This document shows positions 15,834 to 29,789 of a DNA stretch of 35,296 nucleotides, piece by piece. Location of the stretch: assembly GCA_012517605.1 (NCBI GenBank), contig JAAYUS010000051.1, positions 1 to 35,296 on the forward strand. The letters run 5' to 3'. The first letter of the stretch is position 1; each line of letters starts with the position of its first letter. The stretch comes from Bacteroidales bacterium (GTDB taxonomy: Bacteria > Bacteroidota > Bacteroidia > Bacteroidales > VadinHA17). Made by a program: the position numbers and the translations under genes. The notes below the pieces were generated by a model. It saw only the letters and a list, made by a program, of their open reading frames with translations. It was not told where the DNA came from and made no database searches.

Positions 15834-16628
15834 ATGAACAAACAAAATAAACATATTCTCTTTTGCAATTGCCATGGGTCCAGAATCTCGCAGGAAACAC
15901 TGAGCGGGATATTGAATTATCTGGAGCAGCTTTCAATCGGATTTACTGTATTTTCCGATCTTTGCGGAGTTGTTGCATTGAACAGTGGCGCCTTATCAGA
16001 AGTACTGGAAGAGAATACAGAATATCTTGTGATCGGGTGTTTTCCCAGGACTATGAGGCTTTTGTTTGAACAGGCCGGATCAGGTGACCGGAATAACCTG
16101 GCTTTAAATTACATAAACCTCATTGAGACTCCTTTAACAAAAGCACAGGTTCTTATTGACGATTTCTGCTCCGGTGCTCTGAGCATCTCTTCCCGGAAGG
16201 AAATAAAAGGTGAGCCGGGATGGGCTTCATGGTACCCCCTAATTGATTATGCACGCTGCACTGTATGTGGTCAGTGCGCCAATTTCTGTCTTTTCGGGGT
16301 TTATGATAAGACTCCTGAAAAGATCACTGTAGTAAATCCGAAAGGTTGCAAGGATCAATGTCCTGCCTGTGCACGGATATGTCCTTCCGCAGCAATAATT
16401 TTCCCGAAATACAAGCACGGGGGTGCAGTGGGCGGGTCCGATGATATCGATGAAAAGGCAGAATTGCAGAGACAGACACGCGATATTGAATCGATCCTGG
16501 GTGATGATATTTACCTGGCACTTCAGAAAAGAAAAGCCAAAAGGCAGTCGATCATAAGGGAGGAGGAAATGAATAAGGCGATAATGGAAAGGGACACAGC
16601 CATTAATAAAATAAACAAAGCTGAATAA
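15834..16628 (+). CDS. Two-[4Fe-4S] ferredoxin-like protein, first gene of terpene operon
   Basis: 264 residues from ATG 15834; a GTG at 15810 would add 8 residues, but the domain starts at HILFCNCHG, so the later start is preferred. The N-terminal ~110 residues have a Cys motif FCNCHG and an IGCFPR segment resembling parts of HdrA-like or DUF116-associated Fe-S proteins. Two ferredoxin clusters follow: Cys142, 145, 148, 152 (CTVCGQCANFC) and Cys172, 176, 179, 183 (CKDQCPACARIC). The C-terminus (about 205-264) is charged and helical, probably coiled. It is cytosolic. It ends 2 bases before the radical SAM gene and is well placed to deliver electrons to it or to the Cys-rich DUF116 domain. Exact family not recognised. 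Confidence 0.85.
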   Translation: MNKQNKHILFCNCHGSRISQETLSGILNYLEQLSIGFTVFSDLCGVVALNSGALSEVLEENTEYLVIGCFPRTMRLLFEQAGSGDRNNLALNYINLIETPLTKAQVLIDDFCSGALSISSRKEIKGEPGWASWYPLIDYARCTVCGQCANFCLFGVYDKTPEKITVVNPKGCKDQCPACARICPSAAIIFPKYKHGGAVGGSDDIDEKAELQRQTRDIESILGDDIYLALQKRKAKRQSIIREEEMNKAIMERDTAINKINKAE

Positions 16629-16630
16629 AA

Positions 16631-17809
16631 ATGTCAGTATTGAAGAACTTCTTAAAAGCCGACAGGCGTTGCCGAAGGATCTTTCTGACCAATATGGTTG
16701 TGAAAGGCGCCGCCGGTTTTGTAAAGTTCAGGAAAAGAAGGAAGCAAGGTCTAATGTTTCCGGCTTTTCAGTTCATTTCCATCACTAACGACTGCAACCT
16801 TCGTTGCCAGGGCTGCTGGGTTGAAACCGGCAATCCCAAAATCTATATGGATCTTGAAAAGATAGATTCAGTGATTGAAGCCGGAAAAAGGCAGGGTTCA
16901 TATTTCTTCGGCATTCTTGGAGGAGAACCTCTTATTCACAAGGACTTGAACCTTATATTTAAAAAACACCCCGATTCATATTTCCAGCTTTTCACCAACG
17001 GGACTCTTTTCACCAGGCAGGTGGCAGAAAGCCTTAGAAAAGCCGGGAATGTAACACCCCTTATAAGTCTCGAGGGTGATGAATTTGTTGCAGATGTCAG
17101 ACGCGGTGGACACAATGTATATAACCGGACCCTCGATGCGGTAAAAACAGCGACAGCTGCAGGTCTTATTACCGGAGTTGCCATAAGTGTCTGCAAATCG
17201 AACATTGATATGGCGCTTAGTGACGATTTTGTAAAGATGCTTCACAACCTTGGCGTACTGTACATATGGTATTACATTTACCGCCCTGCCGGACACAATC
17301 CCAACTATGAGCTTGCCCTTTCATCTGAAGAGATACTCCGCTTGCGGAAATTCCTTGTTGACGGAAGGACGAGACTGCCCATGGTCCTGGTTGATTCATA
17401 CTGGCGTGCCAATGGGGAACCTTTCTGTCCTGCAGCCGACGGACTCAGTCATCATATAAATCCTTCTGGCAATCTTGAACCATGCCCTGTAATTCAGATT
17501 GCCGGAGAGAATTTTTTTAATGGCGAACCGGCAGCCATATATGAGAATTCAGAACTGTTAAGGGATTTCAGGCGTCAGATACGCAGTAAAACAAATGGAT
17601 GCGTGCTCATGGAAGATCCGGCATGGGTGAAGGATTTTGCTGAAAAACACAATGCCCTGAACACTTCAAACAGACCGGAATACCTCGAAGAGCTTGCATC
17701 ATCACCTTCTGTGAAAAGTCATGGCTCCTGCCCTGTTATACCTGAGAAAAGCCTTATTTACAGGATGGCAAAGAGGACAGCTTTCTTCGGAATGGGCGCC
17801 TATGGATGA
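16631..17809 (+). CDS. Radical SAM protein with SPASM-like C-terminus
   Basis: 392 residues. The [4Fe-4S]-SAM site is Cys55, Cys59, Cys62 in ITNDCNLRCQGCWVE (CxxxCxxC), and the SAM-binding GGEP motif is at residues 97-100. The C-terminal region has Cys265 and Cys284 in a pattern (C-P-A-A-D-G ... INPSGNLEPCP) like SPASM/twitch auxiliary-cluster domains, plus Cys323 and another Cys near 363 that could complete a cluster. The first ~40 residues are basic. It would generate a 5'-deoxyadenosyl radical. The substrate is unknown, but the operon suggests a prenyl or cyclic terpenoid rather than a peptide; no precursor peptide gene is visible. It is the second gene, with gaps of 2 and 6 bases to its neighbours. 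Confidence 0.9.
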   Translation: MSVLKNFLKADRRCRRIFLTNMVVKGAAGFVKFRKRRKQGLMFPAFQFISITNDCNLRCQGCWVETGNPKIYMDLEKIDSVIEAGKRQGSYFFGILGGEPLIHKDLNLIFKKHPDSYFQLFTNGTLFTRQVAESLRKAGNVTPLISLEGDEFVADVRRGGHNVYNRTLDAVKTATAAGLITGVAISVCKSNIDMALSDDFVKMLHNLGVLYIWYYIYRPAGHNPNYELALSSEEILRLRKFLVDGRTRLPMVLVDSYWRANGEPFCPAADGLSHHINPSGNLEPCPVIQIAGENFFNGEPAAIYENSELLRDFRRQIRSKTNGCVLMEDPAWVKDFAEKHNALNTSNRPEYLEELASSPSVKSHGSCPVIPEKSLIYRMAKRTAFFGMGAYG

Positions 17810-17815
17810 TTAAAA

Positions 17816-19408
17816 ATGGAAATGATTTCTGACAACATATTAACCCTTGTGGTGCCGGTTGAAAGCAAATTACGCGATGAGATCCGGCAAAAAACCGACA
17901 GCTATTTTGTAACAAATGTTACAATTCCACCTGTTTCTTACGATAAACTTGCCGGATTTGCTGATCATCTGATTGCTGAAAATGGATGGGATCCAGACTA
18001 TAAGGCCTTCACGATGATATGCTGCGGCAATGCCATCTGGCGTTCTGTAGTTGGAGCAATCCCCTTTGACAGGAGGATGCTTTTACTTCCTCAATGCCTT
18101 AGGAACAGCCAGAAGTGCAATGCACAGGAGGATGATCTCGGACTGCTCTGCAACGAATGCGGCAACTGCAGTATATCAGGATTTATCCGTGAGGCCGAAG
18201 ACCTGGGTTATATAACAATCGTTGCCGAGGGAACAACAATAGCATCACGTCTGGTTGAGAGTGGAAAAGTCGATGCCATAATCGGCGTCGGATGCATGGA
18301 AACGCTGCAGAAGATTTTCAGGACGGTCAATAAATATTCAGTGCCCGCTGTAGGCATCCCGCTTCTTACATGCGGATGTGTCGACACACAGGCAGATGCC
18401 GGATGGATAAGGAAGGAGATTAATTTCCGTAATGACCGCAACGGTTTCCGCCTTTTAAACCTGAATGACCTCAGGGATAAGACTGCCTCACTGTTTACAC
18501 AGGAGAAAATAAATAAGCTTCTTGATTTGAAAAACAATCCGACAGATGAGGTTTTGAGAGATATACTTCTGGCGGGAGGGAAAAGGATTAGACCTCTCCT
18601 CACTGCCCTTACATACCTGGCCTTCAGCCATGACCCTGATACGGAAGTTCTTCAGTATCTTGCAATGTCGGTGGAATGTTTCCATAAAGCCTCCCTCGTG
18701 CACGATGATATTGAAGATGGCGATGATCACAGATATGGCAAGGAAACTGTCCACAAAAAACATGGCATTCCTGTTGCAATAAACCTTGGTGATCTGCTTA
18801 TAGGAGAAGGTTACAGGCTTGTTTCCGAATGCAGCCTTGATCCTGTGGTAATGAAAGATTGTATCAGAATTATTTCAGCCGGACACAGACTGATGTCGGA
18901 GGGTCAGGGCGCTGAGCTCATGGCAAGAAGGAATAACGATATACTCAGTGTGAATGAAGTGCTTGCAATTTTCAGGAGCAAAACTGCAGAAGCCTTTAGG
19001 GTTTCTTTGATGACAGGTGCTCTGGCCGGCGGCGCAGACCAGGAATCTTTAAGGATCCTTGAAGAATTCAGTTACATTATCGGGACCGCCTATCAGTTAA
19101 AGGATGATCTTGAGGATATAACCCGGCCGGAAGAGGGAAATGTATTGAGAAATCCCTCGGCTGTGATCTCGGCATTGGCTGAAAAGACCGGAGAAACAGG
19201 GAAAGAAATCATAAAAAGTCTCGTATCAGAGAATGATATAGATGAAATACGGAAATTGATAGACAAACACAGCATAGACGATTTTATCGACAGCCTAATA
19301 GAAGAATACCTTGTAAGTATTGACAGCTGTCTTTCAGGAATGCAGAACATTCCTTTAAAACTCGCTCTTCATGAGATCGTTGGAAAAACTTTCAGCAAAT
19401 ATCTCTAG
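17816..19408 (+). CDS. DUF116-polyprenyl diphosphate synthase fusion
   Basis: 530 residues in two parts. Residues 1-220 form a Cys-rich DUF116-type domain: Cys69-Cys70, PQCLRNSQKC (Cys94, Cys101), LLCNECGNC (Cys112, 115, 118), GVGC (Cys160) and LTCGC (Cys186, 188), probably binding Fe-S. Residues 225-530 are a complete trans-isoprenyl diphosphate synthase: GGKRIRP (254-260), first Asp-rich motif DDIED (297-301), second DDLED (430-434). The residues four and five before the first motif are small (Ala292, Ser293), which fits a medium or long chain product rather than strict farnesyl length. There is no stop or frameshift at the junction. DUF116 is usually a separate protein, so the fusion links a redox module to prenyl chain synthesis. 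Its 3' end overlaps the next gene by 38 bases. Confidence 0.9.
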   Translation: MEMISDNILTLVVPVESKLRDEIRQKTDSYFVTNVTIPPVSYDKLAGFADHLIAENGWDPDYKAFTMICCGNAIWRSVVGAIPFDRRMLLLPQCLRNSQKCNAQEDDLGLLCNECGNCSISGFIREAEDLGYITIVAEGTTIASRLVESGKVDAIIGVGCMETLQKIFRTVNKYSVPAVGIPLLTCGCVDTQADAGWIRKEINFRNDRNGFRLLNLNDLRDKTASLFTQEKINKLLDLKNNPTDEVLRDILLAGGKRIRPLLTALTYLAFSHDPDTEVLQYLAMSVECFHKASLVHDDIEDGDDHRYGKETVHKKHGIPVAINLGDLLIGEGYRLVSECSLDPVVMKDCIRIISAGHRLMSEGQGAELMARRNNDILSVNEVLAIFRSKTAEAFRVSLMTGALAGGADQESLRILEEFSYIIGTAYQLKDDLEDITRPEEGNVLRNPSAVISALAEKTGETGKEIIKSLVSENDIDEIRKLIDKHSIDDFIDSLIEEYLVSIDSCLSGMQNIPLKLALHEIVGKTFSKYL

Positions 19409-20246
19409 ACTTGTTTCCGGCAGAAAAGCGTTGGTTTTCGGTCAGCTTAGCCCTGAAGCTGTACTTAAACGATCGCTCGGAATGCTCGAAACAAATGCTT
19501 CCCGGGATCTTAAAAATTATGTCGGGGGCAGGATGCATTTCTCCGGGGGATTTAAAGACAAGGCGGAAAATCCGGATCTTTATTACACCCTGTTCGGAAC
19601 TTTCCTCTCCGAAGCTCTGGACCTGAAGGAAATTCTGATGAAAACCCGGCAATATGTTGAAAACGAGATAAGAAATAATGAACCGGCAGGAATACACCTT
19701 TACTGTGCTTCAATCCTTGCTTCAAAACTTTCGACCGACAAGAAACTTAAAGCATTTCTCCGGGAAAGGGTCAGGAAGAACCTTGATGATGGTCTTGTTA
19801 AACAACCCGCATATGGTATGTTTGTAACAATGCTGGCATGTTATTATTCAGGTGATTACAAAGGACTCTTTAAAGTCAGAAGGCATCTTAAAAGTCAGCC
19901 CGGAAATGAAACACTGCCTTCTACGGTTATAGCAGCACTGACTGTACTTCAACATGCATTCGGCAGGCCCACAGGTGATCTTTTAAATAAGCTGATGGAA
20001 TTTTATAACAACCAGGGCGGTTTCAGGGCTGTGAAAAGAGCACCGGTATCTGATCTCCTTTCCACAGCTGTAACTTTATATGCTTGCAGATATGCCCAAC
20101 AGGATCTGAGGACCATAAAGCCTGAATGCCTCAACTTTATAGATTCTCTTTATCATGAAGGAGGATTCGGAGCCAATATGATGGATCCTGAACCTGACAT
20201 TGAATACACATTTTACGGATTGCTGGCTCTCGGATCACTGGCGTAA
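19371..20246 (+). CDS. Prenyltransferase/terpene-cyclase repeat protein
   Basis: 291 residues, all-helical, with repeats of the prenyltransferase/squalene-oxidase type: GGFKDKAENPDLYYTLFGTF (residues 59-78), GGFRAVKRAPVSDLLSTAVTLYAC and GGFGANMMDPEPDIEYTFYGLLALGSL at the C-terminus. No DxDD acid motif is present. The zinc-ligand pattern of protein prenyltransferase beta subunits (D-x-Y-H-T) reads DIEYT here, so the His ligand is missing and zinc catalysis is unlikely. It is probably a partner or substrate-binding half for the cyclase encoded next, or a degenerate cyclase domain. It overlaps the preceding gene by 38 bases in another frame and ends 4 bases before the cyclase start, suggesting coupled translation. 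Confidence 0.8.
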   Translation: MRSLEKLSANISRLVSGRKALVFGQLSPEAVLKRSLGMLETNASRDLKNYVGGRMHFSGGFKDKAENPDLYYTLFGTFLSEALDLKEILMKTRQYVENEIRNNEPAGIHLYCASILASKLSTDKKLKAFLRERVRKNLDDGLVKQPAYGMFVTMLACYYSGDYKGLFKVRRHLKSQPGNETLPSTVIAALTVLQHAFGRPTGDLLNKLMEFYNNQGGFRAVKRAPVSDLLSTAVTLYACRYAQQDLRTIKPECLNFIDSLYHEGGFGANMMDPEPDIEYTFYGLLALGSLA

Positions 20247-20250
20247 CAAT

Positions 20251-22032
20251 ATGGAAGCTAACACTATACATCAGAAATACAACGAACTCGCAGGTCTTCT
20301 GTTATCCGAGATGAACACGGAAGGTTACTGGACCGGCCGTTTATCCGGCAGCGCACTGAGTACGGCAGTGGCAATTGTTGCTCTGAAAATTTCAGATACC
20401 AGGGATGGCCTTAAGAGAATAGCATCAGGTTATGACTGGTTGCTGAAAAGTATTAATGACGACGGAGGGTTTGGCGATACTCCCGAATCAGCAAGCAATG
20501 TCAGTACTACTTTGCTATGCTACTCAGCCATAAGTTACTGCCAGCTAAACGGCAACGGAACAAACACACTCAGAAGGATGGAAGAGTGGCTATATTCAAA
20601 AGGGATTACTCTTGATCCTAAAAATATAACAAGATCAATATTGAAGTTTTACGGGAAAGATCTCACCTTTTCAGTGCCAATTCTTTCGATGCTTCATCTT
20701 GCCGGAGTTATTTCTTCATCTTCATTGAAAGAGATCCCAGGGCTTCCGTTCGAGCTTACACTCCTTCCCCGGTCACTTTACAGTTTTTTCAACCTTCGTG
20801 TTGTGAGTTATGCCCTGCCCGCCCTGATCGGAGTAGGGATCTATCTTCATACCCAAAGAAGAAGGAGAACACTCAGTTTAATGTCGTTCAGAAACATTTT
20901 CATAAAGCCAGCCATCAGGAAACTTAATTCACTTGTCCCTGAAAGCGGCGGATTCCTTGAGGCAATTCCCCTGACCGGATTTGTCGCCATGTGCCTTGTT
21001 GCGTGCGGTAAGGCAGACAGCCAAACTGTTCAGAAAGGGATAGGCTTCCTTTGCCGCCAGCAGCGTGATGATGGCAGCTGGCCTATCGACACTGACCTGT
21101 CGACATGGGTGACAACCCTCTCTGTCAAAGCCCTTGGAAATGATCCCTGCAAACACATGTCTGAAAAGCAAAGAAATATTTTAAGGGAACACCTGCTGGG
21201 ACTTCAGTACAATGAGATACATCCCTTCAATGGCGCAAAGCCCGGAGGATGGGGCTGGACCAGCTATTCAGGATCGGTACCGGATGCAGATGATACTCCC
21301 GGTGCAATACTTGCACTTCATGAACTGTACACCGGCACAGAAAGAGAAAAAAACTCAATTCTTGACGGATGCAGATGGCTTATTGAACTGCAGAATTCCG
21401 ACGGAGGATTTCCTACTTTCTGCAAGGGATGGGGCCGCCTCCCGTTCGACAAGAGCTGTTCCGACCTTACGGGCCATGCTCTCCTGGCATTGATGAGGAC
21501 CATCAGCTGTTTTGGAAATAATATGGACAAAAGGACACAGCAGAATATTGAACGTTCCATATTAAAAGCAGCCGGTTATCTTGAAAAGCATCAGGGATCA
21601 GATGGTTCCTGGATCCCCTTATGGTTTGGAAACCAGAAGACTGACGACCAGACAAATCCGGTCTACGGGACTGCAAAGGTGTGTACATACCTGAATGATT
21701 GTCTTAAACTGGATAAAATAGATTCGCATATTAAATCCAGGCTGGCTAAAATGACTGAAAAGGGTCAGGACTTCCTTGTCAGGCAGCAGAACAATGACGG
21801 AAGCTGGGGAGGGAAGAAGGGAGTTGAAGGGACACTGGAAGAAACTTCACTGGCAATATGTGCGCTGGCTTCGAAAAACAAAGAGTCGTGTTCAAACGGT
21901 TTAGAATGGCTCGGAAAGCAGAGAAATATGAAATCTTCACCTATCGGGCTCTATTTTTCGCTTCTTTGGTATGATGAAAAACTCTATCCTTATATCTATA
22001 TGACGGAAGCGTACCGGAGACTTTTATTATAA
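20251..22032 (+). CDS. Squalene-hopene-cyclase-like class II terpene cyclase
   Basis: 593 residues from ATG 20251; the in-frame TTG at 20200 lies inside the previous gene and is rejected. The proton-donor motif DxDDT is intact (Asp345-Ala-Asp347-Asp348-Thr) in the SHC-like context GGWGWTSYSGSVPDADDT. Several QW-type repeats are present: QQRDDGSWPID, QNSDGGFPTF, HQGSDGSWIPLW and QQNNDGSWGG. These indicate a two-domain alpha-barrel class II cyclase of roughly SHC length (about 630). It would cyclise a linear polyprene by protonation, probably at the membrane. No squalene synthase or HpnCDE genes are in the window, so the substrate may be a prenyl diphosphate from the fusion enzyme rather than squalene. 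It is the last gene of the operon, convergent with an AraC gene 53 bases away. Confidence 0.88.
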   Translation: MEANTIHQKYNELAGLLLSEMNTEGYWTGRLSGSALSTAVAIVALKISDTRDGLKRIASGYDWLLKSINDDGGFGDTPESASNVSTTLLCYSAISYCQLNGNGTNTLRRMEEWLYSKGITLDPKNITRSILKFYGKDLTFSVPILSMLHLAGVISSSSLKEIPGLPFELTLLPRSLYSFFNLRVVSYALPALIGVGIYLHTQRRRRTLSLMSFRNIFIKPAIRKLNSLVPESGGFLEAIPLTGFVAMCLVACGKADSQTVQKGIGFLCRQQRDDGSWPIDTDLSTWVTTLSVKALGNDPCKHMSEKQRNILREHLLGLQYNEIHPFNGAKPGGWGWTSYSGSVPDADDTPGAILALHELYTGTEREKNSILDGCRWLIELQNSDGGFPTFCKGWGRLPFDKSCSDLTGHALLALMRTISCFGNNMDKRTQQNIERSILKAAGYLEKHQGSDGSWIPLWFGNQKTDDQTNPVYGTAKVCTYLNDCLKLDKIDSHIKSRLAKMTEKGQDFLVRQQNNDGSWGGKKGVEGTLEETSLAICALASKNKESCSNGLEWLGKQRNMKSSPIGLYFSLLWYDEKLYPYIYMTEAYRRLLL

Positions 22033-24324: not shown

Positions 24325-25953
24325 ATGAAAAAGTCATTATTAGGTTTAGCAGTCATAATGTGCTTCTCATGCAGCGCTCAGAAGCAGGCGGTCAATACTG
24401 CCCCTGAGGAGCCTGTAATCCGGATTGCTTCAGGTATGTTGCGCGGAGTGAGAGAAGGGAATGTAGACGTTTTCAGAGGTATTCCCTATGCCGCCCCTCC
24501 GGTAGGTGAATTTCGCTGGAGACCTCCGCAGCCCGTTGCTTCCTGGGAAGGGGTGCGTGATGCAAAAGAGTTTGGACCAATCTGTGCCCAGGCCGGGTTT
24601 GGCGGTGGCCCCGGGGCGATTTCCCGGGGATCATCCGAAGATTGCCTTTATCTGAATGTATGGAGGCCTTCGGGAGCCAGGCCGGGAGCAAAGCTGCCTG
24701 TTATGGTATGGATCCACGGCGGGGCTTTCGTCGGAGGATCAGGCAATACCTCAGGAAACGGCTTCGCCACGAAAGGGGTCATCCTTGTCAGCATTAATTA
24801 CCGTCTTGGCCGCCTGGGTCATTTTGCCTTTCCGGCGTTGACCGCCGAACATCCTGAGGAACCAAAAGGCAGCTATGCATTTATGGACCAGATTGCTGCT
24901 TTAAAGTGGGTACAGCAGAACATACAGGCTTTCGGAGGTGATCCTAAAAATGTTACCATTTTCGGTTTTTCCGCAGGAGGCGTTTCAATTCATTCGCTCA
25001 TGACCATACCATCAGCACGCGGACTGTTCCAGAAAGCAATCGGTCATTCCAGCGGTGGAAGGGATGGCGTTCTGACAGGCAGGCCGATCAGCAGGGAAAA
25101 TGCTTCTCAATACTACCCTGTTTCAGCGGAAACCATCGGAATAAACTTTGCCCGCAAACACGGCATTGAGGGTACAGATGCAGCCGCTCTGGCCAGACTG
25201 CGGGCTCTGAAAGTTGAAGAGATTGTGGACGGCGGGCAGGAAAATGACGGACAGGAAGGACCCCGAATCTATTCAGGACCAATTCTGGATGGTAAATTTG
25301 TTGTTGAAAATTGTTCGGATGCATATAATGCAGGCAGGCAGGCAAGAGTCCCTCTCATGATAGGTAATAACAGCGCAGAAATTGGCGGGCCCTTTGTCAA
25401 TGGAAGTACTTCAAAAGAAGAATTGTTTTCAATGTTCGGAGACCTGAAAGAAGAGGCAAAAGCGGCCTATGATCCTGATGGCACAAAGGATTTTGCTGAG
25501 GTTCAAACCAGATTTAATACAGACAAGATTTGGGGTGAGCCTGCCCGCTTTGCGGCTCAAGCAGTAACAAAGAAAGGCGATCCGGCTTACATCTTCCTGT
25601 TCTCCTATGTACCTGCCGGAATGAAAGAAAGAATGCGTTTTGGTCCGGGGCATGGAACTGATATTTCCTTTGTGTTCGATAATCTCAGAGTACCGGAAGG
25701 AGGAACTGCAGACCCTTTGGACAAAGAGGTAGCAAGGATTATGAATGGTTACTGGGTGAATTTTGCCAAAACCGGCAATCCAAATGGTGACGGACTTCCG
25801 CTTTGGCCGCTTTACAATCCGGCAACAAACCAGATACTTGAAGTACAAGCCGATGGAAAACCGGTCGGAAAACCTGATCCGAGAAAAGCCAGACTGGACG
25901 TGATTGAAAAGGCTGTGAACATGGGTGATAAGTTACAGCCTAACGGAATTTAG
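24325..25953 (+). CDS. Type-B carboxylesterase, exported
   Basis: 542 residues of the carboxylesterase/cholinesterase family. The N-terminus is a short hydrophobic signal with a Cys-rich end (VIMCFSCSAQ) that may be a lipobox. The oxyanion-hole motif HGGAF is at residues 131-135, the SEDCLYLNVWRP signature at 104-116, and nucleophile Ser216 in GFSAGG. Glu352 (NSAEIGG) and His443 (GPGHGTDISF) complete the likely triad. The length is normal for the family. It probably hydrolyses esters of small acyl or aryl compounds at the cell surface or in the periplasm. It lies in the same direction as the upstream esterase and could share its transcript. Confidence 0.92.
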   Translation: MKKSLLGLAVIMCFSCSAQKQAVNTAPEEPVIRIASGMLRGVREGNVDVFRGIPYAAPPVGEFRWRPPQPVASWEGVRDAKEFGPICAQAGFGGGPGAISRGSSEDCLYLNVWRPSGARPGAKLPVMVWIHGGAFVGGSGNTSGNGFATKGVILVSINYRLGRLGHFAFPALTAEHPEEPKGSYAFMDQIAALKWVQQNIQAFGGDPKNVTIFGFSAGGVSIHSLMTIPSARGLFQKAIGHSSGGRDGVLTGRPISRENASQYYPVSAETIGINFARKHGIEGTDAAALARLRALKVEEIVDGGQENDGQEGPRIYSGPILDGKFVVENCSDAYNAGRQARVPLMIGNNSAEIGGPFVNGSTSKEELFSMFGDLKEEAKAAYDPDGTKDFAEVQTRFNTDKIWGEPARFAAQAVTKKGDPAYIFLFSYVPAGMKERMRFGPGHGTDISFVFDNLRVPEGGTADPLDKEVARIMNGYWVNFAKTGNPNGDGLPLWPLYNPATNQILEVQADGKPVGKPDPRKARLDVIEKAVNMGDKLQPNGI

Positions 25954-27147: not shown

Positions 27148-28437
27148 ATGAAAAGACTTAATCTCATCTTTACTTCAATCATTCTCCTTTCGGTCATTTC
27201 GAACGTTATGGCGCAGGACTGGCCCCGGTTCCTCGGACCGAACGGTAACAGCACTTCACCCCAGAAAGGTCTCCTTCGTTCCTGGCCGGCAAATGGGCCG
27301 GAAGTTCTTTGGACGGCTAATGTCGGCCCCGGATATGGCGGACCGGTGATAAAGGACGGAAAGGTCTATCTGCTTGACAGGGATGATAAGACAGGCGATA
27401 TAATGAGGTGTTTTGATTTCAACACCGGAAAGGAACTGTGGAACTACAGTTATAATGCGCCGGGAACAGTTTCATATCCGGGGTCAAGAAGTGTTCCTGC
27501 CATCGACGGTAACAGGGTCTATTCCTGCGGTCCTTATGGTGACCTGTACTGCATTGATATCAACACACATAAGCCCATCTGGAACAAGAACATAATGAAA
27601 GATTTCGGTGGAACAAAAATACCGGTCTGGGCGATATCCCAATGCCCGCTTGTTTACGGTGACCTGGTTATAGTGTCTTACTCAAAGGATCCCAATTCCG
27701 GACTGGTAGCCTATAACAAACTGAATGGTAACATCGTATGGAAAACAGATGCAATCGGAAATGAAACTTATGCAAGCCCGTCAATTGCAAAGATTTCGGG
27801 AGAGGATCATCTTGTAATGGTATTTTCATCCACTAATACCTTTATGCACAGGGAAGCCCCGGTATCAAAGGGCAGGATACTTGGCATGAAACCGCAGACA
27901 GGACAAATTCTGTGGGAGTACAATAACTGGGAGAATATGATTCAGATATCTCCGGCTTTTGATGCCGGTGAAGGCAGAATCCTTGCAGTGGGAGGATATG
28001 AACTTGGATCGGCTATGATAAAGGTTGAAAAAAAGGCAGATGGCAGTTATACTGTTAAAGAGCTTTTCAAACATAATGATTTCGGCGATCACACCAAACC
28101 GCCAATACTGGTTAATGGTTATTTCTATGGCCAGTTTTCAACAAACAACAAACGCGATGGCCTGTGCTGTATGAGCATGGATGGTAAGGTAATGTGGAAA
28201 ACGATGCGTAATCCTCTTTTCGATAAAGGCAGCATGATACTGGCCGACGGGCTGATACTTGCTACCGACGGAAGGCAGTCATTATACCTGATAGAGCCTG
28301 ATCCATCAGGCTTCAAGCCTCTGGCTTCTGCTCAGATCCTTGATATGGGACAAAACTGGGCCCCCATAGCGCTTGTGGATGGGAAATTGCTTATCCGCGA
28401 TCAGGCAAAGCTAAAATGTGTTAAAGTGACCAAATAG
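27148..28437 (+). CDS. Secreted PQQ-type beta-propeller protein (copy 1)
   Basis: 429 residues with a signal peptide (about 1-22, SNVMAQ), followed directly by DWPRFLGPNGNSTSP, a start typical of PQQ-like propeller proteins of Bacteroidota and Planctomycetes. Repeated blade motifs end in Trp after a Gly-Lys turn (TGKELWNYSY; THKPIWNKN; NGNIVWKTD; TGQILWEYN; DGKVMWKTM). The eight-blade fold is shared by BamB and quinoprotein dehydrogenases. I see no clear PQQ/calcium site, so a scaffold or binding role is as likely as catalysis. The next gene, 17 bases downstream, is its paralogue. The pair is probably one operon. Confidence 0.88.
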   Translation: MKRLNLIFTSIILLSVISNVMAQDWPRFLGPNGNSTSPQKGLLRSWPANGPEVLWTANVGPGYGGPVIKDGKVYLLDRDDKTGDIMRCFDFNTGKELWNYSYNAPGTVSYPGSRSVPAIDGNRVYSCGPYGDLYCIDINTHKPIWNKNIMKDFGGTKIPVWAISQCPLVYGDLVIVSYSKDPNSGLVAYNKLNGNIVWKTDAIGNETYASPSIAKISGEDHLVMVFSSTNTFMHREAPVSKGRILGMKPQTGQILWEYNNWENMIQISPAFDAGEGRILAVGGYELGSAMIKVEKKADGSYTVKELFKHNDFGDHTKPPILVNGYFYGQFSTNNKRDGLCCMSMDGKVMWKTMRNPLFDKGSMILADGLILATDGRQSLYLIEPDPSGFKPLASAQILDMGQNWAPIALVDGKLLIRDQAKLKCVKVTK

Positions 28438-28454
28438 AAAAAATTACATCATAA

Positions 28455-29789
28455 ATGAAAAGCAGCAGATTGCACTCAACTCTGGTTCTTCTGATAATCA
28501 GCACAATTGTTATTCAGGCACAGGACTGGCCTCAGTTCCTCGGGCCAAACAGGAACAGCACCTCTCCTCAGAAAGGCATTTTGCGCTCATGGCCTGCAAC
28601 CGGCCCTGAAATCCTGTGGACAGTAAACGTTGGCCCGGGTTATGGAGGTCCGGTTATAAAAGACGGAAAGGTTTACCTGCTCGACAGGGATGACAAGACA
28701 GGTGACATAATGAGGTGTTTTGATTTTAACACCGGAAAGGAATTATGGAAATACAGCTATGATGCTCCCGGATCGGTCATGTTTCCAGGCTCAAGAAGCG
28801 TTCCGGCTGTTGACGATAAATATGTATGGTCGGTCGGTCACAACGGCGACATGTACTGTATTGACATCCTTACCCATAAACCAGTCTGGAACAAAAATAT
28901 CTGGACGGAATTTGGAGGCACTAAACTTCCGATATGGGCCATTGCCCAGTGTCCGCTCATTTATGGCGACATGGTTATTGTTGCCCCGCAGGCTCCGGAG
29001 GCAGGAGTTATAGCATTCAATAAAGCCACAGGCAAAATAATCTGGAAAACCGCATATCTTGGAAACGAATCATATGCAAGCCCCGCTGTTGTAAAAATTG
29101 ATGGAAAAGATCATATTGTAGCTGTTGTGTCATCAACAAATCCCTTCGGGAATCGCGACCTCCCTCAAACAAAGGGCAGAATAGTTGGAATGGATCCCTC
29201 CACGGGAAAAATACTATGGGATTACAACGACTGGGTTTGCCATATTTCAGTGCCCTCCGCTGTTGATGCCGGTGAAAACAGGGTGCTTGTCGCAGGCGGA
29301 TATGAGCACGGCGTTGTAATGCTAAAAGTTGAAAAGAAGAGTGATGGCAGTTTCGGAGTTACTGAGCTTTTCAAACATAATGAATTCGGTGATCATACCA
29401 AACCGCCGTTGTTATGCAACGGCTACTTCTATGCTCAGTTCACCACAAACTCAAGGCGGGAAGGGCTGGCATGCATGGATATGAATGGCAAAGTACTCTG
29501 GAAAACCATGAGGGCTCCTCTTTTCGACAAAGGCAGCATGATCCTTGCCGACGGGGTGATCCTTGCCACTGACGGGAGAAAATCATTGTATGTTATTGAA
29601 CCTTCACCTGAGGGATTCAAGCCTCTTGCAAGCGCAGAAGTTCTGGCTGAAGGAGGATCAGCAGGCAATGATCCGATGGCCTCAAGGATGGGAGGAACTG
29701 CACAGAACTGGGCACCGATAGCGCTTGCCGGAGGGAAGCTCCTTATAAGGGATCAGAGCCGGCTTATATGTGTAAAAGTGGCTAAATGA
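28455..29789 (+). CDS. Secreted PQQ-type beta-propeller protein (copy 2)
   Basis: 444 residues, signal peptide about 1-23 (TIVIQAQ), then DWPQFLGPNRNSTSP. It aligns along its whole length with the preceding gene product. Blade one contains an identical run of 41 residues, from NVGPGYGGPV to TGKELW. Copy 2 has an extra ~14-residue insert before the last blade (AEGGSAGNDPMASRMGG). The matching DNA differs at many third positions, so the duplication is old and that stretch is under purifying selection. Other segments, such as the one near QAPEAGVIAFNK, have diverged more, suggesting split specificity. Function unknown. Confidence 0.88.
   Translation: MKSSRLHSTLVLLIISTIVIQAQDWPQFLGPNRNSTSPQKGILRSWPATGPEILWTVNVGPGYGGPVIKDGKVYLLDRDDKTGDIMRCFDFNTGKELWKYSYDAPGSVMFPGSRSVPAVDDKYVWSVGHNGDMYCIDILTHKPVWNKNIWTEFGGTKLPIWAIAQCPLIYGDMVIVAPQAPEAGVIAFNKATGKIIWKTAYLGNESYASPAVVKIDGKDHIVAVVSSTNPFGNRDLPQTKGRIVGMDPSTGKILWDYNDWVCHISVPSAVDAGENRVLVAGGYEHGVVMLKVEKKSDGSFGVTELFKHNEFGDHTKPPLLCNGYFYAQFTTNSRREGLACMDMNGKVLWKTMRAPLFDKGSMILADGVILATDGRKSLYVIEPSPEGFKPLASAEVLAEGGSAGNDPMASRMGGTAQNWAPIALAGGKLLIRDQSRLICVKVAK

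Follow-up and report, generated by a model that had tools for sequence, protein, structure and literature searches.

Cyclases of the squalene-hopene cyclase (SHC) family are commonly taken as markers of hopanoids and squalene, and hopanoid making by the hpn pathway includes a radical S-adenosylmethionine (SAM) enzyme, HpnH. In Bacillus, the sesquarterpene route proceeds from heptaprenyl diphosphate by way of YtpB or of SqhC, an SHC-type cyclase; to our knowledge it involves no iron-sulfur (Fe-S) or radical SAM enzymes and its genes do not form one operon, in both respects unlike the locus described here. Separately, DUF116 (COG1852) has been described as a Cys-rich domain with a probable role in electron transfer, fused to a polyprenyl synthetase in Psta_0175 of Pirellula staleyi; the passages of that paper treating the protein name the fusion without a cassette or cyclase (PubMed Central, PMC5898192).

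Here we report a five-gene cassette, P1 to P5, that ties an SHC-family cyclase to Fe-S, radical SAM and prenyl synthase genes in a 35,296-nucleotide contig of a Bacteroidales bacterium (JAAYUS010000051.1, assembly GCA_012517605.1), the whole of which we term the window. Like the hpn pathway, the cassette combines a radical SAM enzyme with a cyclase bearing the N- and C-terminal SHC domains and the DxDDT motif; like the Bacillus route, it would present an SHC-family cyclase not with squalene but with a chain made by a trans-prenyl synthase; and it shares with Psta_0175, as described in that paper alone, a Cys-rich DUF116-synthase fusion for which electron transfer has been proposed. An earlier note on this DNA, drawn from the sequence by itself, had known of no described pathway with this gene set, and our searches of the open-licence PMC literature likewise yielded no account of the cassette. 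We find that the five genes are a real module, and we consider it moderately probable that they make a dedicated, non-squalene cyclised polyprenoid lipid in Bacteroidales.

Conservation and spread of the five-gene cassette

The five genes occupy positions 15834-22032 on the + strand, and the gaps between them are the 2, 6, -38 and 4 bases given in the earlier note. A search of genome contigs with P3 retrieved 28 loci, 26 of which hold a relative of the whole protein, DUF116 and synthase together; the other two, in Propionibacterium (L039, L040), were dropped as matches to the synthase domain alone. All five genes recur in the same order and on the same strand in 22 of the 26 loci (P5 runs off the contig in L016), the remaining four (L021, L024, L030, L032) being cut short by contig ends. 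Because relatives of whole P3 occur in 26 of 28 loci and order and strand are shared in 22 of 26, the cassette is not a chance arrangement. Identity for P2 and P3 is 54-74% within a group resembling the window and 32-50% in a rumen and gut group of Bacteroidaceae and Prevotella, where it spans 26-50% over the five proteins.

This association was surveyed across 393 genomes drawn evenly from the order, for which the best three or four candidates per genome were scored at thresholds of E ≤ 1e-60 for P3 and P2 and E ≤ 1e-15 for P5. P3 was detected in 17 genomes from 11 families, every one of which also carries P2 (E < 1e-160) and 16 of which carry P5; the remaining 376 genomes have no P3 and no P5 at threshold, and P2 at paralogue level at most. 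The weaker P2 paralogues, with E-values of 1e-66 to 1e-69, lie in G504, in G762 and in G544, where the paralogue is an additional copy. All five genes share a single contig in 12 of the 17 genomes, a count that includes G596 and G759, in which P5 and P1, respectively, lie off a contig end, and G457, in which P4 was detected by tblastn only; in G765 an open reading frame (ORF) of 274 residues intervenes between P4 and P5. Wherever the contigs reveal them, gene order and strand are kept in these genomes too. Contig breaks split the cassette in four others (G040, G492, G569, G757; P1 and P4 were not sought in G040, nor P1 in G492). The co-occurrence of five families on which the earlier note had staked its proposal thus held for the three proteins used in the survey.

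Protein distances among P2, P3 and P5 correlate at r 0.945-0.985 (over the 32 loci where each protein was of sufficient length; calculated without a null model), as expected if the three genes are inherited together. Among plasmid records, none of 330 matches covers at least 80% of P3, and 74 stretches of viral contigs retrieved with the P2 profile yielded no confirmed instance.

Domain composition of the encoded proteins

P3 (17816-19408) encodes, in a single reading frame, a DUF116 domain (PF01976, residues 66-201; 114 bits against a cut-off of 25) in its N-terminal half (17816-18481), followed in its C-terminal half (18482-19408) by a trans-polyprenyl diphosphate synthase domain (PF00348, residues 244-440; 143 bits). 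The earlier note had recognized the synthase and both of its Asp-rich motifs and had overlooked the fused DUF116. Those motifs, D297-D298-x-x-D301 and D430-D431-x-x-D434, are invariant in 14 aligned P3 sequences and, as two DDxxD sites within PF00348, place the domain among trans-polyprenyl synthases; its profile matches geranylgeranyl diphosphate synthase 1wy0 in the PDB at E 2e-43. In the same alignment seven Cys of the DUF116 half (94, 101, 112, 115, 118, 160 and 188) are invariant, and C112, C115 and C118 form the CxxCxxC motif that, with the PF01976 score, assigns it to that family; a further alignment of 25 sequences supports this description of the domain.

Three observations concern relatives of P3. 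A stand-alone DUF116-like protein (L087; G038:C201) adjoins genes resembling, as judged by eye, a molybdenum hydroxylase set, and offers a lead to DUF116 function. The P3 relative at G698:C24:188401-189954 has one TAA within the match, yet a 525-residue open frame is given for it; the TAA is possibly the end of a frame or a sequencing error. Two separate contigs of the Prevotella metagenome-assembled genome (MAG) JAGCPV, L030 and L032, each carry most of a P3 gene, reflecting either two cassettes or mixed strains.

P5 (20251-22032) belongs to the SHC-type class II cyclases: both SHC domains, N-terminal PF13249 (76.2 bits) and C-terminal PF13243 (103.8 bits), exceed their cut-offs, and the protein matches SHC 1gsz at E 5e-20, with the DADDT of its PDADDT stretch aligned over the DVDDT of SHC. 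This acid motif, already read from the sequence in the earlier note, is invariant as D346-x-D348-D349-T350 in 17 aligned sequences, in which residue 347 is Ala or Gly and several Trp are also kept. Against the hopene cyclase equivalog TIGR01507 it scores only 103.5 bits (cut-off 431.1). We place its start at ATG 20251; the ORF is listed from TTG 20200, and the frame from 20248 reads N, then M.

P4 (19371-20246) is a second, small alpha/alpha toroid, without DxDD, related to the beta subunits of protein prenyltransferases (PF00432, 28.2 bits, just above the cut-off of 26.5); the earlier note had not recognized this toroid. It may or may not be a simple duplicate of part of P5, to which hhalign aligns it weakly (probability 22%). 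Its nearest solved structure is RabGGTase beta (E 9e-5), which might suggest that proteins or other lipids are the substrates of P4 and P5 and that the cassette is a protein-lipidation or envelope system. The His of HTLFG-type motifs is the Zn ligand of the protein prenyltransferase beta subunit; across 17 aligned sequences P4 has Tyr in its place (DLYYTLFG; YYTLFG and variants), which separates it from those subunits, and P5 keeps its cyclase acid motif in 17 of 17. We regard a lipidation role as very improbable.

P1 (15834-16628, in an ORF open from GTG 15810) is a predicted electron donor, with an N-terminal domain of about 110 residues bearing CxC and two further invariant Cys, followed by the two [4Fe-4S] ferredoxin motifs that the earlier note had seen. 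All eight ferredoxin Cys, together with C11, C13, C44 and C69, are invariant in 16 aligned orthologues; every Pfam ferredoxin match is below cut-off. The P1 profile matches HdrA in the PDB at E 4e-10, chiefly over the ferredoxin part, the Cys-bearing N-terminal domain showing a very weak likeness to the HdrA N-terminus (4 bits); unlike HdrA, P1 has just 264 residues and no match to a FAD (flavin adenine dinucleotide) domain. Its AlphaFold model (predicted local distance difference test score, pLDDT, 80.8) gave no Foldseek match at E ≤ 0.001. Identity of the N-terminal domain with DUF116 was considered and rejected, since hhalign aligns the two over merely a 13-column ferredoxin-like stretch.

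P2 (16631-17809) is a radical SAM protein (PF04055, 70.2 bits), as the earlier note had read from its CxxxCxxC site, which is invariant (C55-x3-C59-x2-C62) in 15 aligned orthologues. The same alignment conserves C266-x13-G280-x4-C285 and C324 in the C-terminal part, a pattern that we take to be the twitch type of auxiliary cluster. P2 falls outside the HpnH equivalog TIGR03470 (44.7 bits; cut-off 225). Among PDB entries it is closer to SkfB (E 6e-17) than to GDGT-MAS (7tol, E 3e-6), likeness to which is confined to the radical SAM core. In two loci (L035, L038) about 20 core residues present in the other 13 aligned sequences are missing. Radical SAM proteins resembling P2, some 400-515 residues long, make up a sister family represented by L050 (G417; tandem copies), L051 (G114), L052 (G000:C19), G504:C47, G762:C126 and G544:C18; in the window's own genome (G000) the sister gene shares contig C19 with the best match to a PQQ_2 (pyrroloquinoline quinone, PQQ) propeller.

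None of the five proteins reached an NCBIfam cut-off (for P1 and P2, among the best 25 matches listed; P4 had no match), and scans of the window for Rfam families at gathering scores and for tRNAs found none. The cassette would resemble other routes to cyclised isoprenoids in its working, yet it fails the tests for the hopanoid pathway and for HpnH.

Isoprenoid genes of the carriers and the substrate of the cyclase

The SHC-type acid motif and paired domains of P5 invite an ordinary hopanoid explanation, by which P5 would be a divergent squalene-hopene cyclase supplied with squalene from elsewhere in the genome, its four companion genes serving to decorate the hopanoid. We compared isoprenoid genes among 30 distinct cassette genomes, comprising 18 (from 22 entries, four taken as duplicates by identical matches or loci) and a further 12. 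The squalene and phytoene synthase family (SQS/PSY, PF00494), which includes HpnC and HpnD, is below cut-off or absent in 17 of the 30 (13 of 18 and 4 of 12; HpnE was not searched for), so that these carriers depart from the hopanoid pathway, in which HpnCDE or a squalene synthase supplies squalene within the same genome. G765 is counted among them, its sub-threshold PF00494 match lying inside P3. No SQS/PSY gene exceeds cut-off in any of the 10 rumen- and gut-type genomes (whose completeness is not stated), nor in six others reported as 96-99% complete (G007, G040, G533, G544, G636, G765).

The remaining 13 carriers, the window's own genome included, do have SQS/PSY-family genes, which favours the hopanoid route. 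In the own genome there are two, in a carotenoid cluster on contig C159 that also encodes a CrtI-family desaturase and a CarR-type lycopene cyclase domain, each exceeding its cut-off; the two SQS/PSY-family genes score below all listed cut-offs for HpnC, HpnD and phytoene synthase, and far below those for HpnC and HpnD. The earlier suggestion of a non-squalene substrate, made on the absence of squalene synthase genes nearby, is supported by the 17 carriers and qualified by these two genes on another contig of the same genome.

Two further counts bear on the cyclase. PF13243 is matched in 23 of 23 cassette genomes, solely at the cassette; and PF00348 has exactly three matches in each of 22 of 22, P3 being one and the two higher-scoring genes outside the cassette being taken as housekeeping. 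Because P5 is the sole SHC-domain gene, no SQS/PSY gene exceeds cut-off in 17 of 30 and P3 is a third prenyl synthase, squalene is an unlikely substrate for P5. A dedicated prenyl synthase, here fused to an Fe-S domain, would be superfluous in the hopanoid route, and neither P2 nor P5 comes near the cut-off of its hopanoid counterpart, HpnH and hopene cyclase respectively. As the main explanation we rejected the ordinary hopanoid pathway on the squalene synthase missing from 17 of 30 carriers (HpnE was not searched for), and we judge it improbable; a cyclase restricted to squalene with ordinary hpn genes encoded elsewhere, which the earlier note had named as the outcome that would overturn its proposal, is not what we observe as far as sequence can tell.

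P5 might instead cyclise the prenyl tail borne by a head group, as in menaquinone, with P1 and P2 building or altering the head, a meroterpenoid or quinone modification. Genes of UbiA type occur in 22 of 22 cassette genomes, and NapH-like and polyferredoxin genes near the cassettes of relatives (see below) suggest lipid-borne electrons. All 14 control genomes also have UbiA-type genes, so their presence says little about a prenylated head group, and none of the five cassette proteins matches UbiA. We consider this doubtful.

Predicted pathway and redox neighbourhood

On sequence grounds, the enzyme classes, the integrity of their motifs, the co-occurrence of the genes and the lack of an SQS/PSY match over cut-off in many carriers are the firm part of the dedicated polyprenoid route that we favour, and its steps would be as follows. 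The synthase domain of P3 would build an all-trans polyprenyl diphosphate. P1 would feed low-potential electrons to the fused DUF116 Fe-S domain, which may act on the allylic diphosphate, perhaps removing it reductively to leave a plain prene, by analogy with IspH, an Fe-S enzyme of reductive dehydroxylation. The DADDT acid of P5 would then protonate the chain end and set off ring folding, with P4 as a putative partner of P5 or a second toroid, and P2 would modify either the chain or the ringed product by radical chemistry, perhaps joining a group onto an alkene in the manner of HpnH. Such a product would accord with the cyclised isoprenoid altered by radical or Fe-S chemistry that the earlier note had proposed, a proposal that the sequence data support in part. 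On gene-neighbour evidence the product probably acts in the membrane, and the cassette often has propeller and ferredoxin genes close by. The hosts are probably anaerobes, and categorically new chemistry in the cassette is possible.

Several observations weigh against this route. The exact order of the steps is a guess, held with low confidence. The model of DUF116 (pLDDT 71.7, with low confidence near the Cys) has no Foldseek match at E ≤ 0.001, and its profile found nothing at E ≤ 1 among PDB sequences. Squalene is possible in the 13 carriers with SQS/PSY genes. In G820, an 85% complete MAG (L074), P1 to P4 are present and P5 is neither on the contig nor among the P5 matches; genes missing from MAGs may be assembly gaps. 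Finally, the wide synteny that the earlier note had looked for is found within the order and was not seen across distant Bacteroidota: in a draw of 394 other genomes of the phylum, the P2 profile gave no match at orthologue level, detecting weaker paralogues in G114 and G417 and one more in the window's own genome.

Relatives of the cassette reveal a redox neighbourhood that the earlier note did not cover. Upstream of the cassette, many rumen- and gut-type loci encode an aquaporin, a CobW GTPase and a LytTR two-component pair; downstream they encode a PQQ_2 propeller, a propeller-like protein of TAT (twin-arginine translocation) type whose Pfam match is sub-threshold, a TAT polyferredoxin and a Fer4_5 protein (from a Pfam scan of L026), the last presumably NapH-like. 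G442 has the cassette, propellers and polyferredoxin in a single long series followed, as read by eye, by a long Cys-rich NuoEF-like gene, a short gene for another Cys-rich protein, and genes resembling ABC transporters; no NapH is among the ORFs listed at that locus. NuoEF-like and Fer2/FAD genes directly precede P1 in L017 (Pfam scan), and the same pair precedes it in L016 with one 369-residue ORF between. In the window itself, two PQQ_2 beta-propeller genes outside the operon, possibly associated with it (27148-29789, + strand; PF13360, 85.9 and 72.2 bits), lie 5 kb downstream, past an opposite-strand AraC gene, a pair of hydrolase-type genes and an ORF that matches no Pfam family; the gene at 24325 among these was judged by eye.

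Such neighbours raise the possibility that the product is the lipid redox cofactor of an adjoining PQQ-like propeller chain, running from NADH through NuoEF-like proteins, ferredoxins and NapH-like proteins to propellers outside the membrane. Of 31 loci with 2 kb or more to either side, 24 have a propeller in the flank, as detected by a profile built from propellers near cassettes, and the long series in G442 also speaks for this idea; 15 of the 24 belong to one related rumen and gut group, 7 of the 31 lack a propeller in the flank available, and propeller clusters exist in genomes without the cassette (e.g. G001), which weakens a strict link. We hold this idea as a tentative one. The fullest form of the dedicated polyprenoid route is similarly speculative: a squalene-free, anaerobic sequence in which the diphosphate would be lost reductively, P5 and the toroid would close the rings and the radical SAM enzyme would add a redox-active or polar group, giving a new lipid cofactor for the PQQ-like propeller chain in rumen, gut and environmental Bacteroidales.

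Multi-propeller clusters with ABC-transporter-like genes were observed at L091-L092 (G000:C111), L093-L095 (G442:C33) and L096 (G001:C117); polyferredoxin genes accompany the clusters in L094 and L096, and L096 also encodes a NapH-like protein. With or without the cassette, these clusters look like an undescribed extracytoplasmic electron chain.

If the proposed route is correct, the cassette would make a cyclic lipid of a new class in Bacteroidales of the rumen and the environment and would give DUF116 its first role. It would also counsel caution in lipid-biomarker work, and its product may prove to be the lipid with which a propeller redox chain, itself undescribed, is paired.

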